From a virus, in the IMG/VR virus record IMGVR_UViG_3300015264_000040, positions 1 through 33,795 of that record: DNA of 33,795 nt. One strand, written 5' to 3'. A program made the translations under genes and the position numbers. Every line of letters begins with the position of its first letter. The stretch's first letter is position 1. Shown here piece after piece: positions 780-24,844 of this stretch. The notes under the pieces are model-generated. The model saw only the letters and a program-made list of their open reading frames with translations. It did not search any database and was not told where the DNA came from.

Positions 780-1076
780 ATGGAATCTGAGAAGAAACTC
801 TGCTCCAAATGCGGTAAGAATGCTCCGTCGAATGGCAACCCCTGGTGCCAAAACTGCCGCACTGAGCACGCCCGAAAGCAGAGAGAGCAGGATGCCGCGA
901 TGATTGGCGCGCGCAATTTCATCGCTGGGGCTAATGCCGTGCGTAAGGAGTTAGCCAGCAAGTATGGATGCGCCCCTGGCGCAATGTTCGAGGGAACCGC
1001 AATCGCTCGCTACATCCTGAATTTTCCAAATCCTCAGTTTCCAGACAAGCCTGCCGAGGAAGCTAAAGACCTTTGA
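780..1076 (+). CDS. Small zinc-ribbon protein
   Basis: 98 residues on the strand opposite to its neighbours. The N-terminus has a CSKCGK motif (Cys8, Cys11) and a second pair in WCQNC (about residues 23-26), a four-cysteine zinc ribbon, followed by a charged helix (HARKQREQD) and an Ala-rich helical segment. Such short zinc ribbons are often nucleic-acid or protein binding, but nothing here shows a target. The gene stands alone with its own -10-like element and no Shine-Dalgarno. Its 3' end overlaps the 3' end of the propeller gene by 14 bp (convergent). This is a moron-like island; function unknown. Confidence 0.7.
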   Translation: MESEKKLCSKCGKNAPSNGNPWCQNCRTEHARKQREQDAAMIGARNFIAGANAVRKELASKYGCAPGAMFEGTAIARYILNFPNPQFPDKPAEEAKDL

Positions 1077-2640
1077 TCTGCCCGATAAGAATGTGGTTGA
1101 CCAGATTCGGGCCGTAGACCACTACCGTCTGGTCGAGCGTTCCCACGTAGATCTTCCCATTGGCCACAGTCGGTATCGTGAGTTTCGCCAGCGTACCCAC
1201 CGCATCACCAGCACGCCCCGTGCTGCTCCAGTATTCATCCAGAGTGGTCGGATTGAACGCTACGAGCTTAGCGGCCCGCGGAGTAAGTAGGGCATCCCCG
1301 GACACTGGCATTGTGCCCCACACAATGCAGGCGCTTCCGTTGTTGCAGGACGCCATCATTTGAGAGCCTGGAAACTGATATGTTCCTGAGCTGATGACAG
1401 GCGTGGTATTCCACGTTGATCCGGTAAGGCTGAACGCATACACGCTGCCAGTCGTGTTCGGAAAGAATCCCTCGTGAAGGCCAGGAATATAGACGCCGCC
1501 GTAAATACCACGGTGATCGCTCGGTCCACTGGCCGCTCCAGTCGCAAATGTTTGCGGGGCAGTGCAACCGTTGTTGGTACCGCCGATATTCCCCATGCAC
1601 GCAGTGTTCAACGAGGTCAGGGCGTAGTTTTTATCTCCAAAGACCACGAGCGATGTGCCAGGGATGAGCATCGGCCGACCAGATGAGAGGTCCCAATCGT
1701 TGGTGTTGTAGGTGGAGTAATCCGAGGTAGAATACCAATCGAGCAGCGCCAGCGCGGGGCTCAACTTAATCACCGACAGGCACAGATTGCCAGCAGCCGG
1801 CGTGCCGCCACCGTTTCCCGTAATCGCATAGAGGTTGCCGCTTAAGTCCACCGATAGCCCGCCGCCAGCCTGCCAGACGCCACCTTTTGCTTGCCCGCCA
1901 GCGCACGTAGTGCAGAATACTGCCGTCTGTGAGAGCGAAGCATCATACGCAAAGACCCAGCCATACCAGGAACCCCGAGAGGCATCGTCAAACATGCTTC
2001 CAAAGCTCACGTAGATCCGTCCCGGCGATGCAGGAAAGGCTACATTACTCAGCGTTGCCCCTGCGGTGTTCTGCTGACAAAGCGGACAGAAGGTAATACC
2101 CGAAACCGTGCCCGTGATTATCACGTTCGCCACTTGCGTCCCATCGAGGAGGTTCGTCTTTCGCAGCACCCATGTCGTTGCCGTCGAGCACACCGAGTAA
2201 ATCATCTGGCCAGACGGCTCAATGATGGGCGTTCCCTTGCATCCAGTCTCCCGGTTATAGATGCCATCACCCATGGTGTTGACGTAGCTGTTCGGGGCTT
2301 GGTTCGTGCCGAAGTTCGTATTCCAGATTGGCGCGCCGCACTTATCCGCGTTGAAGGCATACAGCGAAGAGTGCATCGTGGCAACGACCAGAAGATTCAC
2401 GGCGCCCGATTGGCCTGTGACGCCAGAAACATTCGGCACGTAGAGCGGCTGTGCATAGACGTCGCCGTCTACCGAATAGGTGCAGAGCTTGCCGAAATTG
2501 GCGCTCGTCACCGTGGCCGGGGAAATGAAAGTCTCGAAATCATTGGTGCCAAGTCTGGCATTAGTGTAATGATCCGTCAGCAACGTCACTGTCGCGCCAA
2601 GGATGCCCACCACACAACACAGCCAGAGCTTACGCCTCAC
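1063..2640 (-). CDS. Secreted/anchored PQQ-type beta-propeller repeat protein
   Basis: 525 residues with a hydrophobic N-terminal segment (about residues 4-21) that reads as a signal peptide or anchor. The following residues show NARLGTN (27-33), a FGKL..YSVDGDVYAQPLYV block (49-68), VVATMHSSLYAFNAD, and repeated propeller-blade strands (GTPIIEPSGQMIYSV; GGVWQAGGGLSVDLSGNLY; ANGKIYVGTLDQTVVVYG). This is the pattern of the large secreted PQQ-repeat-like propeller family that I associate with Acidobacteriota and relatives. No enzymatic residues can be assigned. It is translated after the fibre protein with a GTGA overlap (GTG start 2640), so it may be a virion adhesin tip or an exported host-surface protein. 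Host origin is an inference from family knowledge. Confidence 0.75.
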   Translation of the reverse strand: MRRKLWLCCVVGILGATVTLLTDHYTNARLGTNDFETFISPATVTSANFGKLCTYSVDGDVYAQPLYVPNVSGVTGQSGAVNLLVVATMHSSLYAFNADKCGAPIWNTNFGTNQAPNSYVNTMGDGIYNRETGCKGTPIIEPSGQMIYSVCSTATTWVLRKTNLLDGTQVANVIITGTVSGITFCPLCQQNTAGATLSNVAFPASPGRIYVSFGSMFDDASRGSWYGWVFAYDASLSQTAVFCTTCAGGQAKGGVWQAGGGLSVDLSGNLYAITGNGGGTPAAGNLCLSVIKLSPALALLDWYSTSDYSTYNTNDWDLSSGRPMLIPGTSLVVFGDKNYALTSLNTACMGNIGGTNNGCTAPQTFATGAASGPSDHRGIYGGVYIPGLHEGFFPNTTGSVYAFSLTGSTWNTTPVISSGTYQFPGSQMMASCNNGSACIVWGTMPVSGDALLTPRAAKLVAFNPTTLDEYWSSTGRAGDAVGTLAKLTIPTVANGKIYVGTLDQTVVVYGPNLVNHILIGQIKGL

Positions 2641-4220
2641 TGAATCACCATGGAGTAAACGTACAGCCGGGCAGCGCCACTGTTGGGATACATTCCAAGC
2701 CAGAGTTGATCGGGGCCTCCGCTCATGAACGCCGTACGCCCCTTCTGAAACACCTGATCGAAATTGATCCCGTCCATCGAGGTAAAGACCGTGAGATTAG
2801 TGTTGTCATCCTGAATTCGGATGAAATATCCGCGCCGAACCACAGCAGCCATAATCGATGTTCCGGTAACGCTCGCCGCGGTCGAGTTGTTGCTCGTGGT
2901 CGTATTCCAGTAGTCCATGGCAATCTGTGGAGACGATCCGCTGAATAATGCCAGGAAATTAATGATCTTGCCCGTGCTGCTCTGCCTCCATCCCGCCCCT
3001 ACCCCCAACTCTCCACCAGCAGTTGTGATCCCGCCGATGTCGTCATCAATAAAGTAGGTGACGATGTAAGGCGCGCTCGGTGCAGTGCGATAGATGCCAC
3101 GCAGGGTAACGGCGCTCGTGGCCGCCGCAGAGATGTAGAGGTAACCGCCACTCGTTGTGAGCGATGCGGAGTTCTCAGCAGTCCAGCCAGTCAGTGCAGG
3201 CGCGGTCAGTGCGAACACTGGACCGTAGGAGGCCCCTCCGAACGAAATGTAAGGCGGCGAATAGGTGGCTCCCCCTACGGAAGTTCCCATCTGGACATTC
3301 ATAGTCCAATTCGGAGTCGCTGAGATCGTTCCCGTGAAAACCGCTTTGATATCGAGAACATCGGTTGCCACTGCCGAGAAATTATGAGTGACATCCGAAC
3401 AGGCCGTTGCCGGGTTGGTGATCGTGCAGGTGACGGCGGTGTCCGAGCCGTTCTTTCGCCACGTGACAACAACCACGTTATTGGCCGCGATGGTAGTCCC
3501 AAGCGACGCCGAAAGATCCACACCAAAATCCGTGACGGCGATCGACGATTGGACGTGTGAGGATACGCTGGCCTCCGTGGCGCTTGCCAAGCCGCCGCCG
3601 CCAATGGGGAAAAAGATCGTCGCATTCGATAGGGACACACCCGCCAGGCCGCTGTAGACCGTGATTCCCGTTCCGCCATCGCTCCCGTTCGTCCCATTCG
3701 AGCCCGCCGCTCCTGCAAGCCCGAACGAGCAGACATAATTTGCACCGTCAGGAGCGGTCCAGCACTGCTGTTCACTCGCAGAAACACCGGAGATTCCGGG
3801 GATAGTGATATTCGAGGCAACGCCATTTATGGTCGTGCTGTTCCGCGAAACGGTATGTGCGGAAGCGTTGATGTTGATCACTCCAAACTTGCACGTCGCG
3901 GAGATTGGCGGATTGGCCAATGTAAGGGTGGTAGCCGTCCCGTTGACCACCAGCCAATTGCCGCAATCGCCACTGTTCAATGTGTGGTCCGTGGTATAGC
4001 TGAGCGCTACGCCAGCGTTTGCGACCGCAACGGCAGCGTCCACATAAGAGTTCGTCGCCACCTTCGTGCTGCTGTCGAGAGCGCTCTGTGTGGTTGCCGT
4101 GCTGCCATTGGCGAGCGTACATCCGGATCCCGTAGTGCAGGTGTTCGTGCCGCCACCGGGAGGATTGATCGGCTGCCCGTGCGCAACAGCCACCAGCAGC
4201 AACGCCACAATCAGGCGCAT
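2637..4220 (-). CDS. Fibre/adhesin-like protein with signal peptide, collagen-like stretch and lectin-like C-terminus
   Basis: 527 residues. The first 15-16 form a textbook signal peptide (basic R2, LIVALLLVAVAHG, then QP). Residues 55-170 resemble phage fibre segments (ATNSYVDAAVAVA; TLTLANPP; a Cys-rich GVININASAHTVSR strand pattern). A short Gly-X-Y run (GLAGAAGSNGTNGSDGG, about 172-188) is collagen-like. The C-terminal third (YFIRIQDDNTNLTVF..SMDGINF ... LWLGMYPN) has the strand pattern of concanavalin/LamG-like or DUF1349-like glycan-binding domains. Low Lys/Arg and many Ser/Thr/Gly/Asn fit an extracellular or virion fibre. The ATG start overlaps the preceding gene by 10 nt. A signal peptide on a phage fibre is unusual. 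Confidence 0.7.
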   Translation of the reverse strand: MRLIVALLLVAVAHGQPINPPGGGTNTCTTGSGCTLANGSTATTQSALDSSTKVATNSYVDAAVAVANAGVALSYTTDHTLNSGDCGNWLVVNGTATTLTLANPPISATCKFGVININASAHTVSRNSTTINGVASNITIPGISGVSASEQQCWTAPDGANYVCSFGLAGAAGSNGTNGSDGGTGITVYSGLAGVSLSNATIFFPIGGGGLASATEASVSSHVQSSIAVTDFGVDLSASLGTTIAANNVVVVTWRKNGSDTAVTCTITNPATACSDVTHNFSAVATDVLDIKAVFTGTISATPNWTMNVQMGTSVGGATYSPPYISFGGASYGPVFALTAPALTGWTAENSASLTTSGGYLYISAAATSAVTLRGIYRTAPSAPYIVTYFIDDDIGGITTAGGELGVGAGWRQSSTGKIINFLALFSGSSPQIAMDYWNTTTSNNSTAASVTGTSIMAAVVRRGYFIRIQDDNTNLTVFTSMDGINFDQVFQKGRTAFMSGGPDQLWLGMYPNSGAARLYVYSMVIQ

Positions 4221-4498
4221 ACGAACACCGCCGTATCGCCTATGGCCAGCTTGTAATAGATCGCCGTGAGGTCGTAGAAGTTGTAGTCCTCGGCGATTGG
4301 CGGATTGAACTGACCACCTCCAGCAGAGAGCGGAATGCCTGCCGTATCCCCAATATTTGCATCTCCGAGCCTGCTATTGCCCGCGATGGCCTGCCCGACA
4401 AGCTGAAACCACTTGCACGCCTGTGGAGCGCCAGGAATAGTTGAAAGGGCGTGGACCGCGCCATCGCCGGTCACCCAGGTGGGAGTGTGGAGCGTCAT
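4211..4498 (-). CDS. Small virion-type protein (jelly-roll-like)
   Basis: 95 residues, first gene of a leftward unit. The motif series ARxGDxNI-like (SRLGDANIGD), SAGGGQFNPPI and YDLTAIYYKLAIGD resembles short beta-sandwich phage proteins encoded beside tail/fibre genes. That family likeness is from memory and moderate. ATG 4498 has no Shine-Dalgarno; instead TGG-TACCAT sits 6 nt upstream. It overlaps the fibre gene by 10 nt, so the three genes down to 1063 probably form one transcript. Confidence 0.65.
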   Translation of the reverse strand: MTLHTPTWVTGDGAVHALSTIPGAPQACKWFQLVGQAIAGNSRLGDANIGDTAGIPLSAGGGQFNPPIAEDYNFYDLTAIYYKLAIGDTAVFVCA

Positions 4499-4504
4499 GG
4501 CGCG

Positions 4505-4514
4505 ATGGTACCAT
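4505..4514. promoter_or_regulatory. Palindromic bidirectional -10 element (ATGGTACCAT)
   Basis: The 10-bp sequence ATGGTACCAT is its own reverse complement. Read leftward it gives TGG-TACCAT, then 6 nt (CGCGCC), then ATG 4498. Read rightward it gives TGG-TACCAT, then 5 nt (AGCTT), then the first base of tRNA-Ser at 4520. Both distances match -10 to transcription-start spacing, so one palindrome may start both the virion operon and the tRNA. A good -35 is absent on both sides. Confidence 0.5.
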
Positions 4515-4519
4515 AGCTT

Positions 4520-4604
4520 GGAGAGTACGGACGGAAGGTCTGTCTCCGGTCTTGAAAACCGGCGCTCCGAAAGGATGGGGGTTCGATTCCTCTACTCTCC
4601 GCCA
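4520..4604 (+). tRNA. tRNA-Ser (anticodon UGA)
   Basis: The 7-bp acceptor stem GGAGAGT pairs with ACTCTCC, followed by G and an encoded CCA. The anticodon arm is CCGGT-CTTGAAA-ACCGG, giving anticodon UGA (reads UCA). A long variable arm (GCTCC-GAAA-GGATG) marks a class II serine tRNA. The T arm is GGGGG-TTCGATT-CCTCT with two G-U pairs. Anticodon and variable arms closely follow the bacterial tRNA-Ser pattern, while the D arm (about GAC/GTC) is short and divergent. It could serve phage codon usage or mark an attachment site, but no integrase is visible. Confidence 0.9.
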
Positions 4605-4610
4605 AGCTTT

Positions 4611-4811
4611 ATGAAGATGCCCGCCAAGTCCGTCACGCTGCGCTACGAAGCAACCCGCTCGCTCGATAGCATCGCACTGGGCTTGGTGCGCCAAGGAATG
4701 GGTGTGGAGAAGGCGTACAGGCAGGCAGCGCTGGAAGTCGATGCGCAAGCCCAGCAGCGATTCCCTGTCACCAAACGCGGCGAGCGCAAGTTCCCGCTAT
4801 TCTCTACTTGA
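4611..4811 (+). CDS. Small hypothetical protein downstream of tRNA-Ser
   Basis: 66 residues, starting 6 nt after the tRNA CCA end. It is basic and helical (MKMPAKSVTLRYEATRSL..., GMGVEKAYRQAALEV, ending RGERKFPLFST). No family recognised. No clear Shine-Dalgarno lies between tRNA and ATG; translation could follow tRNA processing. Its last 8 bases overlap the end of the small membrane gene on the other strand. The frame could be fortuitous, but codon character and length favour a real moron gene. Confidence 0.5.
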   Translation: MKMPAKSVTLRYEATRSLDSIALGLVRQGMGVEKAYRQAALEVDAQAQQRFPVTKRGERKFPLFST

Positions 4812-4968
4812 TCGCCGCACCGAATACAGCCCAGCCAAGAATGGCGAACAGCACAAATCCCAACAGCGTATTTGGCCAGTAGTACGGCGTTGCGGGCGTC
4901 GGCCTGCCGATCCATCCGAACACCAACCAGACAATCATGAGGACCCAGAATAGGACTGAGAGTGTCAT
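4804..4968 (-). CDS. 54-residue membrane protein with two predicted helices
   Basis: Starts at ATG 4968 and ends TAG 4804. Residues 4-20 (SVLFWVLMIVWLVFGWI) and about 34-51 (TLLGFVLFAILGWAVFGA) form two membrane helices joined by a Pro/Tyr-rich loop (GRPTPATPYYWPN), ending AAIK. It is the last gene of the portal unit and overlaps upstream by ATGA with a possible 23-residue frame. Two short helices in a phage late operon would suit a small holin or a superinfection-type membrane peptide, but that is inference. Confidence 0.6.
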   Translation of the reverse strand: MTLSVLFWVLMIVWLVFGWIGRPTPATPYYWPNTLLGFVLFAILGWAVFGAAIK

Positions 4969-5036
4969 GGCTTGAGTGTACTATGCGGGGCGGTGCCAGA
5001 GTCGTGAACGGCCGTGTCACGCTCCTTTGGACTCAA
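4965..5036 (-). CDS. Possible 23-residue peptide linking 5033 and 4968
   Basis: TTG start at 5036 overlaps the preceding stop (TTGA) and its own stop overlaps ATG 4968 (ATGA). An AAAGGAG sequence lies inside the frame. The product (MSPKERDTAVHDSGTAPHST...) has no recognisable features. The only support is the exact overlap chain. Confidence 0.25.
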   Translation of the reverse strand: MSPKERDTAVHDSGTAPHSTLKP

Positions 5037-5134
5037 CTCTGACGGCCATCCTCGGTGATTGCTAACCGAATGGGCCGGGTCCCATGGATACTTCGCTGCT
5101 GGGTGTCCGGCGAGATGGCACAAACCGCCCACAT
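5033..5134 (-). CDS. Possible 33-residue peptide after the minor head gene
   Basis: ATG at 5134 shares one base with the stop of the preceding gene (TGATG), and its TGA overlaps the next possible TTG start. The product (MWAVCAISPDTQQRSIHGTR...) is not recognised. Together with the next small frame it would fill the otherwise empty 4969-5133 interval; neither is certain. Confidence 0.3.
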   Translation of the reverse strand: MWAVCAISPDTQQRSIHGTRPIRLAITEDGRQS

Positions 5135-5421
5135 CAAGTGTACACCCGCTGGCGCTTCACTTTGTATTCTAGACCGCATCCGCAGTGGGGATGCAGCGGC
5201 GGCCCGTCCTCATCGCCGAAGACCCCCTCAAAGACCGCATCATCCTCTATCCAGTCCAGATCCGCAGCATCTTCGCAGATCTCACACGCGCCATCGTCAG
5301 GCACGAAGCGCTTGACGTTGACCTCCTCGTAGTAATAGGAGCGGCCAGCCTCATCGACCCGCAGAGATGCGCGGACCAGCAGGGCGGAAAGTTGCTCGAC
5401 GGCCTCAGCGAGCGGGCTCAC
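5134..5421 (-). CDS. Phage minor head / Mu F-like zinc motif protein (short)
   Basis: 95 residues. The diagnostic part is CEIC (Cys46, Cys49), an acidic stretch, then PPLHPHCGCGLEY (residues 74-86), the C-terminal Cys/His cluster typical of phage Mu F-like minor head proteins. In the full-length family this follows a domain of about 200 residues that is missing here, so this is either a stand-alone C-terminal module or a reduced version. GTG start 5421 overlaps the preceding stop (GTGA). Position just downstream of the portal supports a head role. Confidence 0.65.
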   Translation of the reverse strand: MSPLAEAVEQLSALLVRASLRVDEAGRSYYYEEVNVKRFVPDDGACEICEDAADLDWIEDDAVFEGVFGDEDGPPLHPHCGCGLEYKVKRQRVYT

Positions 5422-5657: not shown

Positions 5658-5778
5658 AGTCGGGGCAGTCCCAATGCTCTGCGGTTTCCAGCGTTCTTTT
5701 GGCTATCGATTTGTTCAGGTGCTTCACGCAGCACGGATCATCTGCGCATTCAGGCGTGACCGTTTGGACGATTGGCAT
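5575..5778 (-). CDS. Small cysteine-rich (zinc-binding) protein
   Basis: 67 residues from ATG 5778, which has GAGG 9 nt upstream; a TTG at 5793 is possible. Cysteines at 11, 16, 17, 38, 41 and 43 (CADDPCC ... DCPDCGCEW) suggest a zinc ribbon. The start lies inside the last codons of the portal gene. No family assigned. Confidence 0.6.
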   Translation of the reverse strand: MPIVQTVTPECADDPCCVKHLNKSIAKRTLETAEHWDCPDCGCEWLPREVDGIRVWRPCVFFAIFKH

Positions 5779-7951
5779 TTCGACTTGCCTCAAATATCTT
5801 GAGCGCTCCCAGCAGATTATGGAGCGCGGTTTCTAGTTCGGCTTCCTTGACGGGCGCGGTCACTGGGACTGTTGGCTGCCCAGTCGCCGGGTTGAGTTGC
5901 GGTAGCCCTCCAGGATTGGGCGTGAGCTTCTGGACTGGCGGCGCAATTTCCTCCTTGGTGCGGTCCAAATCATACTCGCCCTTGGGGAACATCTTCTCCA
6001 CGATCTGGTCGGCATTCGGAATCTGGAGAAGCTTGAAGAGCATCCGAATGCCCTCCTTCTCGTCGATCCCGACTATCTGGCCTTGCCGGTTCCCTAGCGT
6101 CATCGAGTGAATAACAGCGTCGATGAGCTGCGGCAGGTTAGCCACTTCCGGCGCCTGCGTGCGGTCCTGGTAGTCGCCAATGTAGGACTTCGGCGGGTAC
6201 ATTGCGTCGATGATATCGGTGACGCCCTCGATGTCCAGAGTCTCCATTAGTTTCGAGACTCCCGCACGCTCGTCAATGCCGCTCACCTGTTGGCCGCGGA
6301 GAGTGAGCGCGTCCACGATGGCAGCGACCTGTTGCGGAGTGTCGCCCTCGCGAATTGCGGGGAACTTGCAGACTACCTCGATGACATCGGGCGTTGGCTG
6401 CTTCGAAGCTTCGTAGACCCAGTGGCAGTTCTTCATCTTGCGGCCAGCTTCACGAATCTCAATCTTGGTCATATCCAAGATCATATTGCTGGCCTTCCAG
6501 CGCTCTTGCAATGCTTCCTTCAGTTTCCCGCTGGGGGCAGCCTTTGACACCTGGAGCGCGTACCGCCCCATCACCACCAAGTCCTCCTGCCACTCCTCCT
6601 GCATAAGCAGAAAGCCGAGTTCTGTGGGCCTGTCGAGTGTTTGTGCGGTGCTGAGGTTAGACGTCTCCATGTCACCCAGCCATGTTGGCGGAATACCAAT
6701 GACACATGCGACCATATTGCGAAACTCTTTGATGCGTCCCGGGTCGCCCCCTGCGTCCTTCATGTTGAACGCTTCGACTGTGGTGCCAGGGCCTGAGGCG
6801 AATGTTGAGCCAGGCAGGGGAGTAGGATTCGGGTCCCATACTGTTCCGGTCGGTCCAGCACCTGTCTGCATCTGGCCCTTGGCCCCCATGATGGCTTGCT
6901 GGCCGCCCTTGGTCTGCATCACAATAGCGATTTGGTGGAGCGCTTGCCAGACGGAAGCGAAAGCCTCCAGGAACTTCTTGCCCTCTTTGCTGTATTCGAG
7001 TGCTGGATAGATCGGCGGGCAACCCCAGATCCAAGAAGCCACCCCACCGACCTTGCGATGGTAGACGGGCGAGTCCCATTGCACGGGGATTCCATTGATG
7101 GTCGCCTCTCGCTTGGTTGGTTTAAACCACAGGGCTGGATACCAAGCCTCGGCGCTCTCCGTGCGAATCTCTCCAGATTTCGGGTCAAATATCCGCTGCG
7201 TCCACGTGCGCCGGAAGTACCACTCTTCCGCTGCATCATCGGGGTTGCAGATGATGTCCTGCACTTCGGTGGCATCAATCAGCCGCACACTAACGTCGCC
7301 GCTGTCCTGGGTGTCTGGGAATAGGCGCCAGAATAGGTTTCCGTCGTACATCTTCCGCTTCTGCAAGTCGGTGAGCGCGATTTGTCCCAGCACGGATTTG
7401 TTGTTTTCGATGAGGCGCTTGAGAACATCGTTAGCATCGGGATCAGGTGAAGAAAGTTCCACGCCCTGGCCGAACACGTATGCTGCCGAGAGGTTAATGC
7501 CGCGACGCAACCACGGGTGCTTCAGGTAGTACAGCCGCGATATCAGGATGATTTGCTGAATGCCCCAGCGCGAGAACTCAAGCAGTGAGAAGTTGACCTC
7601 GCGCCGCCACTCTACATTTTGTAGCGCAAGATCGAGATCCCCAGTCGCGCCCTGCGACAGGAACGGATTCGCCTCTTTGAACCTTCCGGGTTGGTTGATA
7701 GTGGCACGCGCCTCGTGGACCAGCCACGGCCCCGCGCCGGCCATCTGTCGCGCTTCCATCAACTCGTGGCATCGCTCAACGTATGCGGCACGGTGGACAG
7801 CCTCCGGGTCAGGTGGCGCTATCGCCTTGGCCAGCAGCGCCTTGAGGTCGCGCTCCATGTCCGTTTCGGGCACGGGTTGACGGACGGGATTGAGCCTATT
7901 GAAGGCGCGACGGAGGAGCGTATTAGCGAACTGGTGTAGCCGCTGGTTCAT
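5750..7951 (-). CDS. Phage portal protein
   Basis: 733 residues, long for a portal, with a head-completion-type N-terminal region, a central region with WGIQQIILISRLYYLKHPWLRRGINL (portal wing/stem entry), ATEVQDIICNP, and the characteristic FRNMVACVIGIPPTWLGD..TSNLSTAQTL block (about residues 430-455) of SPP1/HK97-type portals. A Pro-rich C-terminal tail follows. It forms the dodecameric DNA channel at the capsid vertex and docks terminase. ATG 7951 has no Shine-Dalgarno; TGA-TACCAT lies 6 nt upstream and overlaps the stop of the preceding gene, so it appears to start its own unit. It is separated from terminase by about 12.5 kb of accessory genes, which is atypical. Confidence 0.85.
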   Translation of the reverse strand: MNQRLHQFANTLLRRAFNRLNPVRQPVPETDMERDLKALLAKAIAPPDPEAVHRAAYVERCHELMEARQMAGAGPWLVHEARATINQPGRFKEANPFLSQGATGDLDLALQNVEWRREVNFSLLEFSRWGIQQIILISRLYYLKHPWLRRGINLSAAYVFGQGVELSSPDPDANDVLKRLIENNKSVLGQIALTDLQKRKMYDGNLFWRLFPDTQDSGDVSVRLIDATEVQDIICNPDDAAEEWYFRRTWTQRIFDPKSGEIRTESAEAWYPALWFKPTKREATINGIPVQWDSPVYHRKVGGVASWIWGCPPIYPALEYSKEGKKFLEAFASVWQALHQIAIVMQTKGGQQAIMGAKGQMQTGAGPTGTVWDPNPTPLPGSTFASGPGTTVEAFNMKDAGGDPGRIKEFRNMVACVIGIPPTWLGDMETSNLSTAQTLDRPTELGFLLMQEEWQEDLVVMGRYALQVSKAAPSGKLKEALQERWKASNMILDMTKIEIREAGRKMKNCHWVYEASKQPTPDVIEVVCKFPAIREGDTPQQVAAIVDALTLRGQQVSGIDERAGVSKLMETLDIEGVTDIIDAMYPPKSYIGDYQDRTQAPEVANLPQLIDAVIHSMTLGNRQGQIVGIDEKEGIRMLFKLLQIPNADQIVEKMFPKGEYDLDRTKEEIAPPVQKLTPNPGGLPQLNPATGQPTVPVTAPVKEAELETALHNLLGALKIFEASRNANRPNGHA

Positions 7952-7957
7952 GGGGCA

Positions 7958-7966
7958 ATGGTATCA
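7958..7966 (-). promoter_or_regulatory. Extended -10 (TGA-TACCAT) for portal start
   Basis: Leftward TGA-TACCAT with 6 nt (TGCCCC) before ATG 7951. The TGA is also the stop codon of the preceding gene. The same TACCAT-N6-ATG layout occurs before 4498. No -35 consensus is visible. Confidence 0.45.
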
Positions 7967-8263
7967 CCACGGAAGAATCGGGGACTGATTTGCGTTTCTG
8001 GCAGCGATTGCCATCAATTCCCATACAAGGTTTTCTGGCTCGTCGCATACCGAGTCCGCGTATTCTTTGGCCAATCTCATCAGCCGTTTATAATCTTTGG
8101 TTGCCGATACAAGCCCCTCTCCAAAGCTCCATTCGTTGTCTTCGGCACTTAGACAGCACGTGATTTTGCTCCTGACGTCAATAGCAGCATTGCAAAGAGA
8201 TTCGATCAAGGCAATAAACCTTGCCTCCCCTCCGCCCTTATTCCTAAGTTCTTCTACGTTCAT
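7964..8263 (-). CDS. Hypothetical helical protein, last gene of the accessory operon
   Basis: 99 residues from ATG 8263, chosen because it overlaps the preceding stop (ATGA); longer frames upstream have poor composition. Helical, with FIALIESLCNAAIDVRSK, KRLMRLAKEYADSV and a Trp-rich end (QSPILPW). No family recognised. Some small phage proteins of this layout accompany replication or packaging genes, but no role can be assigned. Confidence 0.6.
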   Translation of the reverse strand: MNVEELRNKGGGEARFIALIESLCNAAIDVRSKITCCLSAEDNEWSFGEGLVSATKDYKRLMRLAKEYADSVCDEPENLVWELMAIAARNANQSPILPW

Positions 8264-9132
8264 AACTCCAACCCGTAACTGTTCAGCCCATCCGCCAGCC
8301 TCGGATTCTCGGCTAGCAGTCGCTTCACCCCTGCCATCTGCCAGGGCCGCGCGTCCACGTGGAGGTGCTCCATCAGGTCCACGTAGGGTGCCCACCAAGA
8401 TTCGGGAACGCGGCTCATGAGGCCGAGGCCTTCGACGGTCGGATCGTACATCGCGTTGATCTGTGCGGCCGTCATGCGATTCGGCCAGCGCTTGCGCTCG
8501 GTGAGCTTATAGAGGAACTGCTTCCACTTCAGCCGCTGCTCGCTCACCATTTGAAAGTGCATCAGCCCACCCGTGCGATTCCCTGGCGATAGCGGAGCGC
8601 AAGGCACGAATCCGCGCCCCATCGGATGCCGGTGGTGATGGTCGTAGCCCTCACGCGCCTTCCAGCAGTACGCGGGCTCGTCGCGGAACGCCGTGCTGAC
8701 ATCTTGCGTGCCCCACAGGCCGTCGATGTGAACGGTGTAGATGGAGCCTCGAAGCTGGAGCCATGGCAACTGGAGTATCGCGCCGGGCGGAATATTCTCG
8801 ACCCATGCGCGAATCTTCGGGAGCAGGTTGCCAGATAAAACCTCGTCATCATCGATTGTCACGATGTGCGTGGCATCGAGCATCCGCGCCGCGTCAAGCA
8901 ACCGCTGCCGATGCGCCATCTCGGCCCAAGTCGGCAACCCGTCGTACAGATAACTGACGCGCTCTTCGCCGTATTCGATCGCCAGAGCGATGCAAATGTT
9001 CGGTGTCGCGTCCGTGCTGCAATGGTCAAGGATTATCAGATGGTCCACCCACATGAGCAGCGCCCGCGCAGAGAGCCCCAATATCCAAGCGGAATTGCGA
9101 CACGGCATGATGGCGATTATGCGGGAGGTCAT
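8260..9132 (-). CDS. Glycosyltransferase family 2-like protein (GT-A fold)
   Basis: 290 residues. The N-terminal strand RIIAIMPCRNSAW, the LDHCSTD turn (35-41) and IDDDE (93-97, the metal/nucleotide-sugar binding DxD) are hallmark GT-A features of the glycosyl transferase 2 family. A His-rich stretch (YDHHHRHP, about 163-170) and a Trp-rich C-terminal region follow. It would transfer a sugar from a nucleotide sugar to an unknown acceptor, most likely virion protein, host surface glycan or DNA. It starts by TGATG overlap and ends by ATGA overlap, so it belongs to the 20-kb accessory operon. Confidence 0.75.
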   Translation of the reverse strand: MTSRIIAIMPCRNSAWILGLSARALLMWVDHLIILDHCSTDATPNICIALAIEYGEERVSYLYDGLPTWAEMAHRQRLLDAARMLDATHIVTIDDDEVLSGNLLPKIRAWVENIPPGAILQLPWLQLRGSIYTVHIDGLWGTQDVSTAFRDEPAYCWKAREGYDHHHRHPMGRGFVPCAPLSPGNRTGGLMHFQMVSEQRLKWKQFLYKLTERKRWPNRMTAAQINAMYDPTVEGLGLMSRVPESWWAPYVDLMEHLHVDARPWQMAGVKRLLAENPRLADGLNSYGLEL

Positions 9133-18818: not shown

Positions 18819-19254
18819 ACGTGCGGTGCTCCTTCTTGTGGCAACGATCACATAGCCACTCTAAATCGAGCCTTTTTGCATAATCACTGTGATGGGCATG
18901 TGTTTTGGGGTCGCCACAACATTGGCACTGCATTCGCTGTAAAGTACCCCTCCGCAGGGCGTACGCTACGGCGTTATGGGCCGCCTTCTTATGCGGGTTC
19001 CTTTGTGACCACGCTTTTATCGTTTCGTATGAAGTCTTTGACTTAGGTCGTTTTCCATCAGAAACATACTTTTGTAACCTGATGGCCCGACATCTAATGC
19101 ATGGACTGCATGGCTTACCCCGACAGCCGACCTGAAATTCTTCTGGCCCCTTGTCTTGTCCGCAGTCATAACAATGCACAAAACCGACAGGTGGACGGAC
19201 GCGAGGCCCGGATCTATGCGTCTTGATCGCGCAGACTGCCGGCTCATTTGCCAT
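18811..19254 (-). CDS. HNH endonuclease with N-terminal zinc finger
   Basis: 147 residues. An N-terminal cluster CYDCGQDK (Cys28, Cys31) and PCSPCIRCR (Cys49, Cys52, Cys55) is followed by CQCCG (Cys110-113), HAHHSDY (119-125) and WLCDRCHKKEH (133-143), the treble-clef HNH core of phage recombination endonuclease VII-like proteins. A free-standing nuclease within the sugar cassette, consistent with mobility. It begins MANEP, similar to MASEQP at 19589. Confidence 0.8.
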   Translation of the reverse strand: MANEPAVCAIKTHRSGPRVRPPVGFVHCYDCGQDKGPEEFQVGCRGKPCSPCIRCRAIRLQKYVSDGKRPKSKTSYETIKAWSQRNPHKKAAHNAVAYALRRGTLQRMQCQCCGDPKTHAHHSDYAKRLDLEWLCDRCHKKEHRTYA

Positions 19255-19589: not shown

Positions 19590-19752
19590 CGGTGCGCTCC
19601 TTCTCCAATTCCGCTTCGATCCGCTCCATGCTGATGACCCGCAGCCAGATGGTCAGCGGCATCCCGCGCTGTTTGGCGATACGCTTCGCCACCTTGAAAT
19701 CGTGATGGTGGAAGCGGACGTATGCGCCGGGCTCTTTCTTGTCAGGCTTCAC
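19579..19752 (-). CDS. Ribbon-helix-helix-like small protein
   Basis: 57 residues from GTG 19752 (GTGA overlap with the ligase stop). PGAYVRFHHHDFKVAKRIAKQRGMPLTIWLRVISMERIEAEL (split here: strand YVRF, helix 20-30, helix 34-50) has the strand-helix-helix layout of Arc/CopG-type DNA-binding proteins. Could regulate the operon. Family likeness is moderate. Confidence 0.5.
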   Translation of the reverse strand: MKPDKKEPGAYVRFHHHDFKVAKRIAKQRGMPLTIWLRVISMERIEAELEKERTDGK

Positions 19753-20411
19753 CGCTTGCCTGCCTGGAAGTCTTTGGTCTTGAGCTTTATTATCAGACGC
19801 TCGCCACGACGGTCAAAAAGCGTCTCGATTGGACGGGCAACGATGCCTTCTGCCATACTTGTCCCGATCTTCGACGCGAACGGAACGCGAACAAGCTCGA
19901 CAATCTCAGGCAGCGACATGCGCCCAAGATATGGCACGAGATCGCAGCCTAGCTTTCCAGCCACGTCCTCAAGTGCCGCCTTGTCCAACCACCATTTACC
20001 AGCCACCAGAACATCGAATAGAATGAATCCCTTGTCAGTCCGGTACGTTCCGCCCTTCTGAATTCCTGCCCCGTACCCTTCGCCATAGAGCACTGCAGAT
20101 ACAGGCCCGTTCGCAAAGAAAGCAGATTGCATTTTCGGGATCGTGAATTGCTGCATGAGCTTCACCACAAGATCGGCTGGCATCTGGGCATTATTCGAGC
20201 GCCCCCCGAATGTCACATTGCCTTGCTCAGAGAGCATCACACGAACATTCGTGCCGTCGATCTTTTCCGTAACGTCCCAAACACTAATCGTGCCAATGAC
20301 GGGGCTTTTGAGCCTTGCCTCGTTTACGCGGAAATCCTCGCTACGCTCGAAGATGGTGTCGATTTTGTGATATTCGGCAAATCCCTCTATCGAAGTTTGA
20401 AACAGTGCCAT
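19749..20411 (-). CDS. RNA ligase (Rnl2/DRB0094-like nucleotidyltransferase)
   Basis: 220 residues from ATG 20411. Complete set of ligase motifs: I KIDG (Lys50 as adenylation site), III VLYGEGYGAG (107-116), IIIa GFILFDVLV (128-136), IV EGIVARP (188-194), V LIIKLKTKDF (206-215). It seals RNA ends by an ATP-dependent adenylate route; phages use such enzymes to repair tRNAs cut by host anticodon nucleases, here plausibly with its own tRNA-Ser. No polynucleotide kinase partner is visible. It heads the accessory operon, lacks a Shine-Dalgarno and has its own promoter. The long upstream extension of the frame is terminase shadow. Confidence 0.85.
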   Translation of the reverse strand: MALFQTSIEGFAEYHKIDTIFERSEDFRVNEARLKSPVIGTISVWDVTEKIDGTNVRVMLSEQGNVTFGGRSNNAQMPADLVVKLMQQFTIPKMQSAFFANGPVSAVLYGEGYGAGIQKGGTYRTDKGFILFDVLVAGKWWLDKAALEDVAGKLGCDLVPYLGRMSLPEIVELVRVPFASKIGTSMAEGIVARPIETLFDRRGERLIIKLKTKDFQAGKR

Positions 20412-24470: not shown

Positions 24471-24844
24471 CAGATTCTCAGTTTCGTTGTCGCTTCGCGG
24501 AGCAAGACCGTTAATTCGGCCACGGTCAAAGCTCTCTTCATTTCTTCGATATAGACCCGGAAGTACGTTAGAACAACCCATGCTGTTACAGCAGATACTA
24601 GCGCAGTGAGGGCGTTCCACCAAAGAAAAATTGTGTTGTATCTCCCGCATTTTCCGCGAAAGCCAAACCAGGCCTCCTGGCCATGGCCTAAGCCGCAGAG
24701 GAAAACAAAGGCCGCGCAAAGAACAAGAAAGGCGCGAAGAGGACGTTTGAAGCTGGGGACGCCAGTCGCGGCAACGATGCCAGCTGGGATAACCAAGTAA
24801 CTCAAGCAGATAACGAGGTCAGAAATCCAAGGGGCCGATGTCAC
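24470..24844 (-). CDS. Stand-alone ethylene-receptor-like three-helix membrane sensor domain
   Basis: 124 residues, GTG start 24844. Three predicted membrane helices (about 8-27, 37-56, 72-95) and a helical tail (YIEEMKRALTVAELTVLLRE). The sequence lines up with the N-terminal domain of plant ETR1 and the matching domain of bacterial sensor kinases: ISD..I...Y..IP near residues 7-20 and FLCGLGH (48-54). Asp9, Tyr16, Ile19, Pro20, Cys50 and His54 match ETR1 Asp25, Tyr32, Ile35, Pro36, Cys65 and His69, including Cys-x3-His that binds copper. No kinase, GAF or GGDEF domain follows; a coupled coiled-coil membrane protein does. What it senses is unknown. Confidence 0.75.
   Translation of the reverse strand: MTSAPWISDLVICLSYLVIPAGIVAATGVPSFKRPLRAFLVLCAAFVFLCGLGHGQEAWFGFRGKCGRYNTIFLWWNALTALVSAVTAWVVLTYFRVYIEEMKRALTVAELTVLLREATTKLRI

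Follow-up and report, generated by a model that had tools for sequence, protein, structure and literature searches.

The useful result obtained for the 10-bp palindrome ATGGTACCAT is not the palindrome itself, it is a signal behind it that extends throughout a clade of related phages. In the window, i.e., the whole stretch of DNA analyzed here (an IMG/VR virus record of 33,795 bases, classed as linear), ATGGTACCAT is present in a single, perfect copy at 4505-4514 and the string TGG-TACCAT is readable from either of its strands. Judged by its spacing and by comparison with related phages, the leftward reading is rather probably the extended -10 of a leaderless promoter, from which the mRNA of the neighboring gene, termed p4211, would start at the A of its ATG. 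The site comprises the following features:

4505-4514, no strand: palindrome ATGGTACCAT, one of 24 10-bp palindromes in the window
4505-4513, minus strand: leftward extended -10 TGG-TACCAT, predicted leaderless promoter (TANNNT peak at gap 6 in relatives; 15/27 homologues)
4506-4514, plus strand: rightward reading TGG-TACCAT, probably incidental (gap 5 at background, 7/862)
4498, minus strand: A of the p4211 start codon, where leftward transcription is predicted to begin (seventh nucleotide after the hexamer; clade-wide spacing)
4211-4498, minus strand: p4211, 95 aa, conserved family near the portal gene, without Shine-Dalgarno sequence (profile matches and alignments)

Leftward, 6 nt (4499-4504) lie between ATGGTACCAT and the ATG of the ORF at 4211-4498 and, rightward, 5 nt (4515-4519) separate it from the 5' end of a tRNA-Ser(UGA). 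An earlier sequence-only reading of this DNA had given these two spacings, the coordinates of the palindrome and the occurrence of the same TGG-TACCAT on both strands, all of them exactly. The hexamer TACCAT agrees with TATAAT in four of six positions, among them the two that count most (A at -11, T at -7), and is preceded by the extended TGn. Since a sigma-70 scan of 4200-5100 returned no promoter, and no -35 at TGG-TACCAT, this element must, if used, act as an extended -10 without a -35. At the start of p4211 (4498), TACCAT is located at gap 6 and no Shine-Dalgarno sequence is found upstream. The leftward -10 implies a leaderless mRNA because a start 7 nt after the hexamer coincides with the A of the ATG; in mechanistic terms, the extended -10 would drive a leftward transcript from exactly this base. 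The spacing of the -10, its conservation and the missing Shine-Dalgarno sequences are shown by sequence statistics; a leaderless p4211 mRNA, the actual start sites and leaderless translation are inferred from them, and we consider them likely.

No close relatives were obtained from viral contigs with p4211, with the portal protein or with exact patterns of the tRNA. A portal profile built from four sequences led to 80 loci, 48 of which (L018-L065) showed 36-54% identity, and the clade statistics given below refer to about 50 related viral loci with 862 distinct start codons. The genes surrounding p4211 that are relevant in this context are listed here:

5750-7951, minus strand: portal protein gene, the query for relatives (phrog_10963, 1.6e-54)
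7958-7966, minus strand: extended -10 TGA-TACCAT at a distance of 6 nt from the portal ATG (7951), same leaderless layout
5134-5421, minus strand: p5134, head-associated ORF, the immediate upstream neighbor of p4211 homologues in several relatives
4804-4968, minus strand: small membrane-type ORF of 54 aa, preceded at gap 6 by a TACACT of its own
2637-4220, minus strand: following gene, which overlaps p4211 and encodes a glycine-rich protein of 527 aa with a signal-like stretch at its N terminus; no family match

The gene run of p4211 also contains an ORF of 525 aa (1063-2640, minus strand) with a weak, below-cut-off match to PQQ_2/BamB-like beta-propellers, and an ORF that by eye resembles glycosyltransferases (8260-9132, minus strand) is conserved in most relatives at a position closely preceding the portal gene.

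We regard p4211 as a genuine gene that is conserved in the vicinity of the portal gene, because a profile made from six p4211 sequences matches in 31 of 52 related records, homologues having been sought only in records already found through the portal. No match for p4211 was present in PHROGs or Pfam, and a genome scan produced one weak, chance-like locus, L002. The term "virion operon" chosen in the sequence-only reading is plausible; the p4211 family recurs in portal-related records but is matched by no annotated family. TANNNT is kept at a distance of 5-8 nt from the start in 15 of the 27 distinct p4211 homologues and is missing there in the other 12; the corresponding binomial p of ~4e-17 against background overstates the evidence, as more than one candidate start was tried for each homologue and the homologues share common ancestry.

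The same arrangement recurs well beyond p4211. Before 862 distinct starts of close relatives, TANNNT occurs 37, 31, 19 and 17 times at gaps 6, 7, 8 and 9, respectively, compared to a background of 5.8 per position (p ~3e-18 for gap 6), and the crude calling of gene starts in the relatives should dilute this peak, not create it. Gaps 4, 5 and 10 are at background level, with 7/862 for gap 5. A Shine-Dalgarno-like sequence precedes just 5 of the 102 TANNNT-type starts vs. 201 of the 760 others. Furthermore, TGn is favored before the hexamer, and at gap 6 the start codon is preceded by C in 70% of the cases in close relatives. The start sites of the clade would fall on the start codon because transcripts begin ~7 nt after the hexamer, and the combination of TANNNT spacing and missing Shine-Dalgarno sequence appears to be the signature of leaderless mRNAs across these related phages. 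The claim of a leftward -10, originally made for a single site, has in this way become broader and stronger. In distant portal relatives, there is at most a trace of a TANNNT peak and none that is clear, and plasmid DNA from the acidobacterium Granulicella, a possible yardstick for the host, revealed no clear leaderless peak either (4/180).

Within the window, the leaderless layout is found for the portal gene (TGATACCATtgccccATG) and the ORF starting at 4968, and the same layout, TANNNT with gaps of 6-7 nt, precedes the minus-strand starts at 18851, 20411 (an RNA ligase gene), 24844 and 26493. The leftward site in the palindrome would accordingly represent one of a set of leaderless promoters employed all across this phage and the phages related to it. 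As a separate observation, two divergent ORF starts at 24844 (minus strand) and 24882 (plus strand) are ~37 bp apart, with TAGAAT facing leftward and TACGAT facing rightward, each at gap 6.

A leaderless phage mRNA that starts at AUG is known for lambda cI. There, a single gene is leaderless, whereas the signal described here concerns many genes across a phage clade. In bacteria, leaderless genes whose start codon is accompanied by a TANNNT Pribnow box have been described (Zheng et al., 2011; PMC3160421), with reports from Acidobacteria, Actinobacteria and Deinococcus-Thermus among others. The phage genes resemble them in the TANNNT core at a fixed distance from the start codon and in the missing Shine-Dalgarno sequence, but they belong to a clade of uncultured phages and not to cellular genomes, and their start sites are predicted ones.

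In the rightward direction, the site faces the tRNA-Ser gene:

4520-4604, plus strand: tRNA-Ser(UGA), CCA encoded, weak score, unusual D arm (ARAGORN; RF00005, 31 bits vs. a cut-off of 29)
4515-4519, plus strand: AGCTT before the tRNA, pairing with AAGCT at 4604-4608 (fold)

Homologues of p5134 and p4211 are directly adjacent in three relatives (L020, L043 and L044). In the window, ~640 bp lie between the two genes and hold the tRNA and two small ORFs, so that the tRNA-Ser sits in a stretch that parts p4211 from its usual upstream neighbor. An ORF of 66 aa directly 3' of the tRNA (4611-4811, plus strand), for which no homologue was found, may not be a gene. An RNA ligase is encoded at 19749-20411 on the minus strand of this tRNA-carrying phage (phrog_548, 6.7e-26); the repair of cleaved tRNAs is a known task of RNA ligases from phages.

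Several explanations can be put forward for the tRNA-Ser. It is possible, if rather unlikely, that it is a silent or decaying passenger and that only the leftward promoter matters. Such a state would agree with a score close to the RF00005 cut-off, with a D arm that is devoid of the usual U8 and A14, with the antisense orientation relative to the direction of the genes and with the absence of the tRNA from relatives: a tRNA-Ser at the homologous place was not found at any of the p4211 homologues examined. Blastn matches in a phage collection cover only the conserved part of the tRNA-Ser. On the other hand, anticodon arm, T arm, acceptor stem and CCA are all intact and ARAGORN does call a tRNA.

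It is doubtful that a rightward promoter within p4211 drives the tRNA-Ser, with normal processing of the transcript by RNase P. Most tRNAs are made with leaders, and the pairing of AGCTT with AAGCT fits this picture in that it would extend the acceptor stem of a leader-bearing precursor, five bases being weak evidence. However, the scan of 4200-5100 did not reveal any promoter of the sigma-70 type, and the 80 nt that precede the tRNA hold no other suitably spaced TANNNT.

The most far-reaching proposal of the sequence-only reading was that a single symmetric -10 gives rise to a leaderless mRNA leftward and a leaderless tRNA rightward, for which RNase P would not be needed. Three points are in its favor. 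Apart from TGG-TACCAT, no extended -10 (TGnTANNNT) occurs on the plus strand between 1376 and 22965, G4520 is located 6 nt after the hexamer and thus one nucleotide off the optimum, with start sites varying by ~1 nt, and the sharing of TA by the two -10s places the starts ~23 bp apart, a distance common in bidirectional promoters of E. coli (PMC12825309). Against it, a start at 4520 requires gap 5, which is one nucleotide short of the shortest gap enriched in the clade and remains at background level there; when the clade spacing is applied to the -10 at 4509-4514, starts at 4521-4524 are obtained, corresponding to nucleotides 2-5 of the tRNA. Because gap 5 is not enriched, rightward starts would mostly lie inside the tRNA. 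The only other good tRNA in the clade, a tRNA-Met (G037), has TACAAT at gap 11, from which a short leader would result. Conservation is seen neither for the tRNA-Ser nor for the palindrome, and the complementarity of AGCTT and AAGCT matters only if a leader is made. Taken as a whole, the two-sided leaderless arrangement is improbable, the leaderless tRNA-Ser derived from the rightward -10 is unlikely, and the part of the sequence-only reading that concerned a tRNA without 5' leader is not supported. The rightward reading of ATGGTACCAT is probably incidental, as inferred from the clade spacing; any rightward firing may be low-level, as at known symmetric promoters, with starts mostly inside the tRNA.

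For bacteria, it has already been described that polymerase may take either direction at a single symmetric -10 (PMC12825309). In E. coli, the most frequent distance between divergent starts at symmetric -10s is 18 bp, and distances of 10 and 23 bp are common as well (PMC12825309; PMC10268837); bidirectional promoters with symmetric -10s have been described by Warman et al. (2021), as cited in PMC12825309. The site studied here is similar in that the -10s on both strands share TA and that the predicted starts (4498 and 4520/4521) are 22-23 bp apart, a separation within the 7-25 bp expected of bidirectional symmetric -10 promoters. It differs in that the predicted rightward start is at or inside a tRNA and that the symmetry is not conserved. 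Leaderless tRNAs are established for Nanoarchaeum equitans, which has no RNase P (PMC10941002). What is shared is the notion of tRNA synthesis that leaves out the 5' leader; in N. equitans, however, leaderless tRNAs are general, whereas here a single phage tRNA with an off-optimum -10 and a predicted 5' end is concerned. A literature search on leaderless bacterial tRNAs gave nothing useful. The ATGGTACCAT site would best be filed as a leaderless promoter, for which two-way use is possible.

With regard to the symmetry as such, perfect 10-bp palindromes are at chance level in the window (24 vs. ~33 expected from 33.8 kb/1024; 4 of the 24 extend to 12 bp) and the palindromy of ATGGTACCAT alone therefore carries no meaning. 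What is above chance at ATGGTACCAT is the position of the leftward -10 relative to the start codon. The sequence-only reading had named a lack of conservation of the palindrome in relatives beforehand as a refuting result, and no conservation was seen: neither GGTACC nor a 10-bp palindrome centered on the TA of the -10 occurs at any of the p4211 homologues examined, and one relative (L114) has an unrelated palindrome further upstream of its p4211 homologue. The two-way form ANNNTANNNT was detected in 17 of 102 leaderless-type sites vs. 39 of 201 control TANNNT and is thus no commoner in the former, and none of the 102 sites is a perfect palindrome. By these comparisons, the symmetry of ATGGTACCAT is neither kept nor favored in relatives; it looks accidental, a chance property of this copy in which TGGTA complements TACCA. 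A scan of viral contigs for TGGTACCAT near GGAGAGT returned 12 matches, none before a tRNA-Ser. The perfect dyad over the -10 might suggest an operator that overlaps the promoter and binds a dimeric repressor; this is very improbable, given that 10-bp palindromes are at chance level, the 10-mer is not repeated in the window and no such palindrome is found at any homologue, which leaves the operator reading of ATGGTACCAT unsupported by conservation.

The rightward half would gain importance only if a leaderless tRNA were shown for a bacterial phage; if one symmetric -10 did produce two leaderless RNAs, the tRNA-Ser would need no host RNase P. As for the leaderless promoter of p4211 and the signal to which it belongs, uncultured tailed phages appear to start many genes, the portal gene included, via leaderless mRNAs from extended -10s. 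If confirmed, the signal of this clade would inform on the initiation habits of the host, improve the calling of gene starts in such phages and offer a test bed for leaderless translation.
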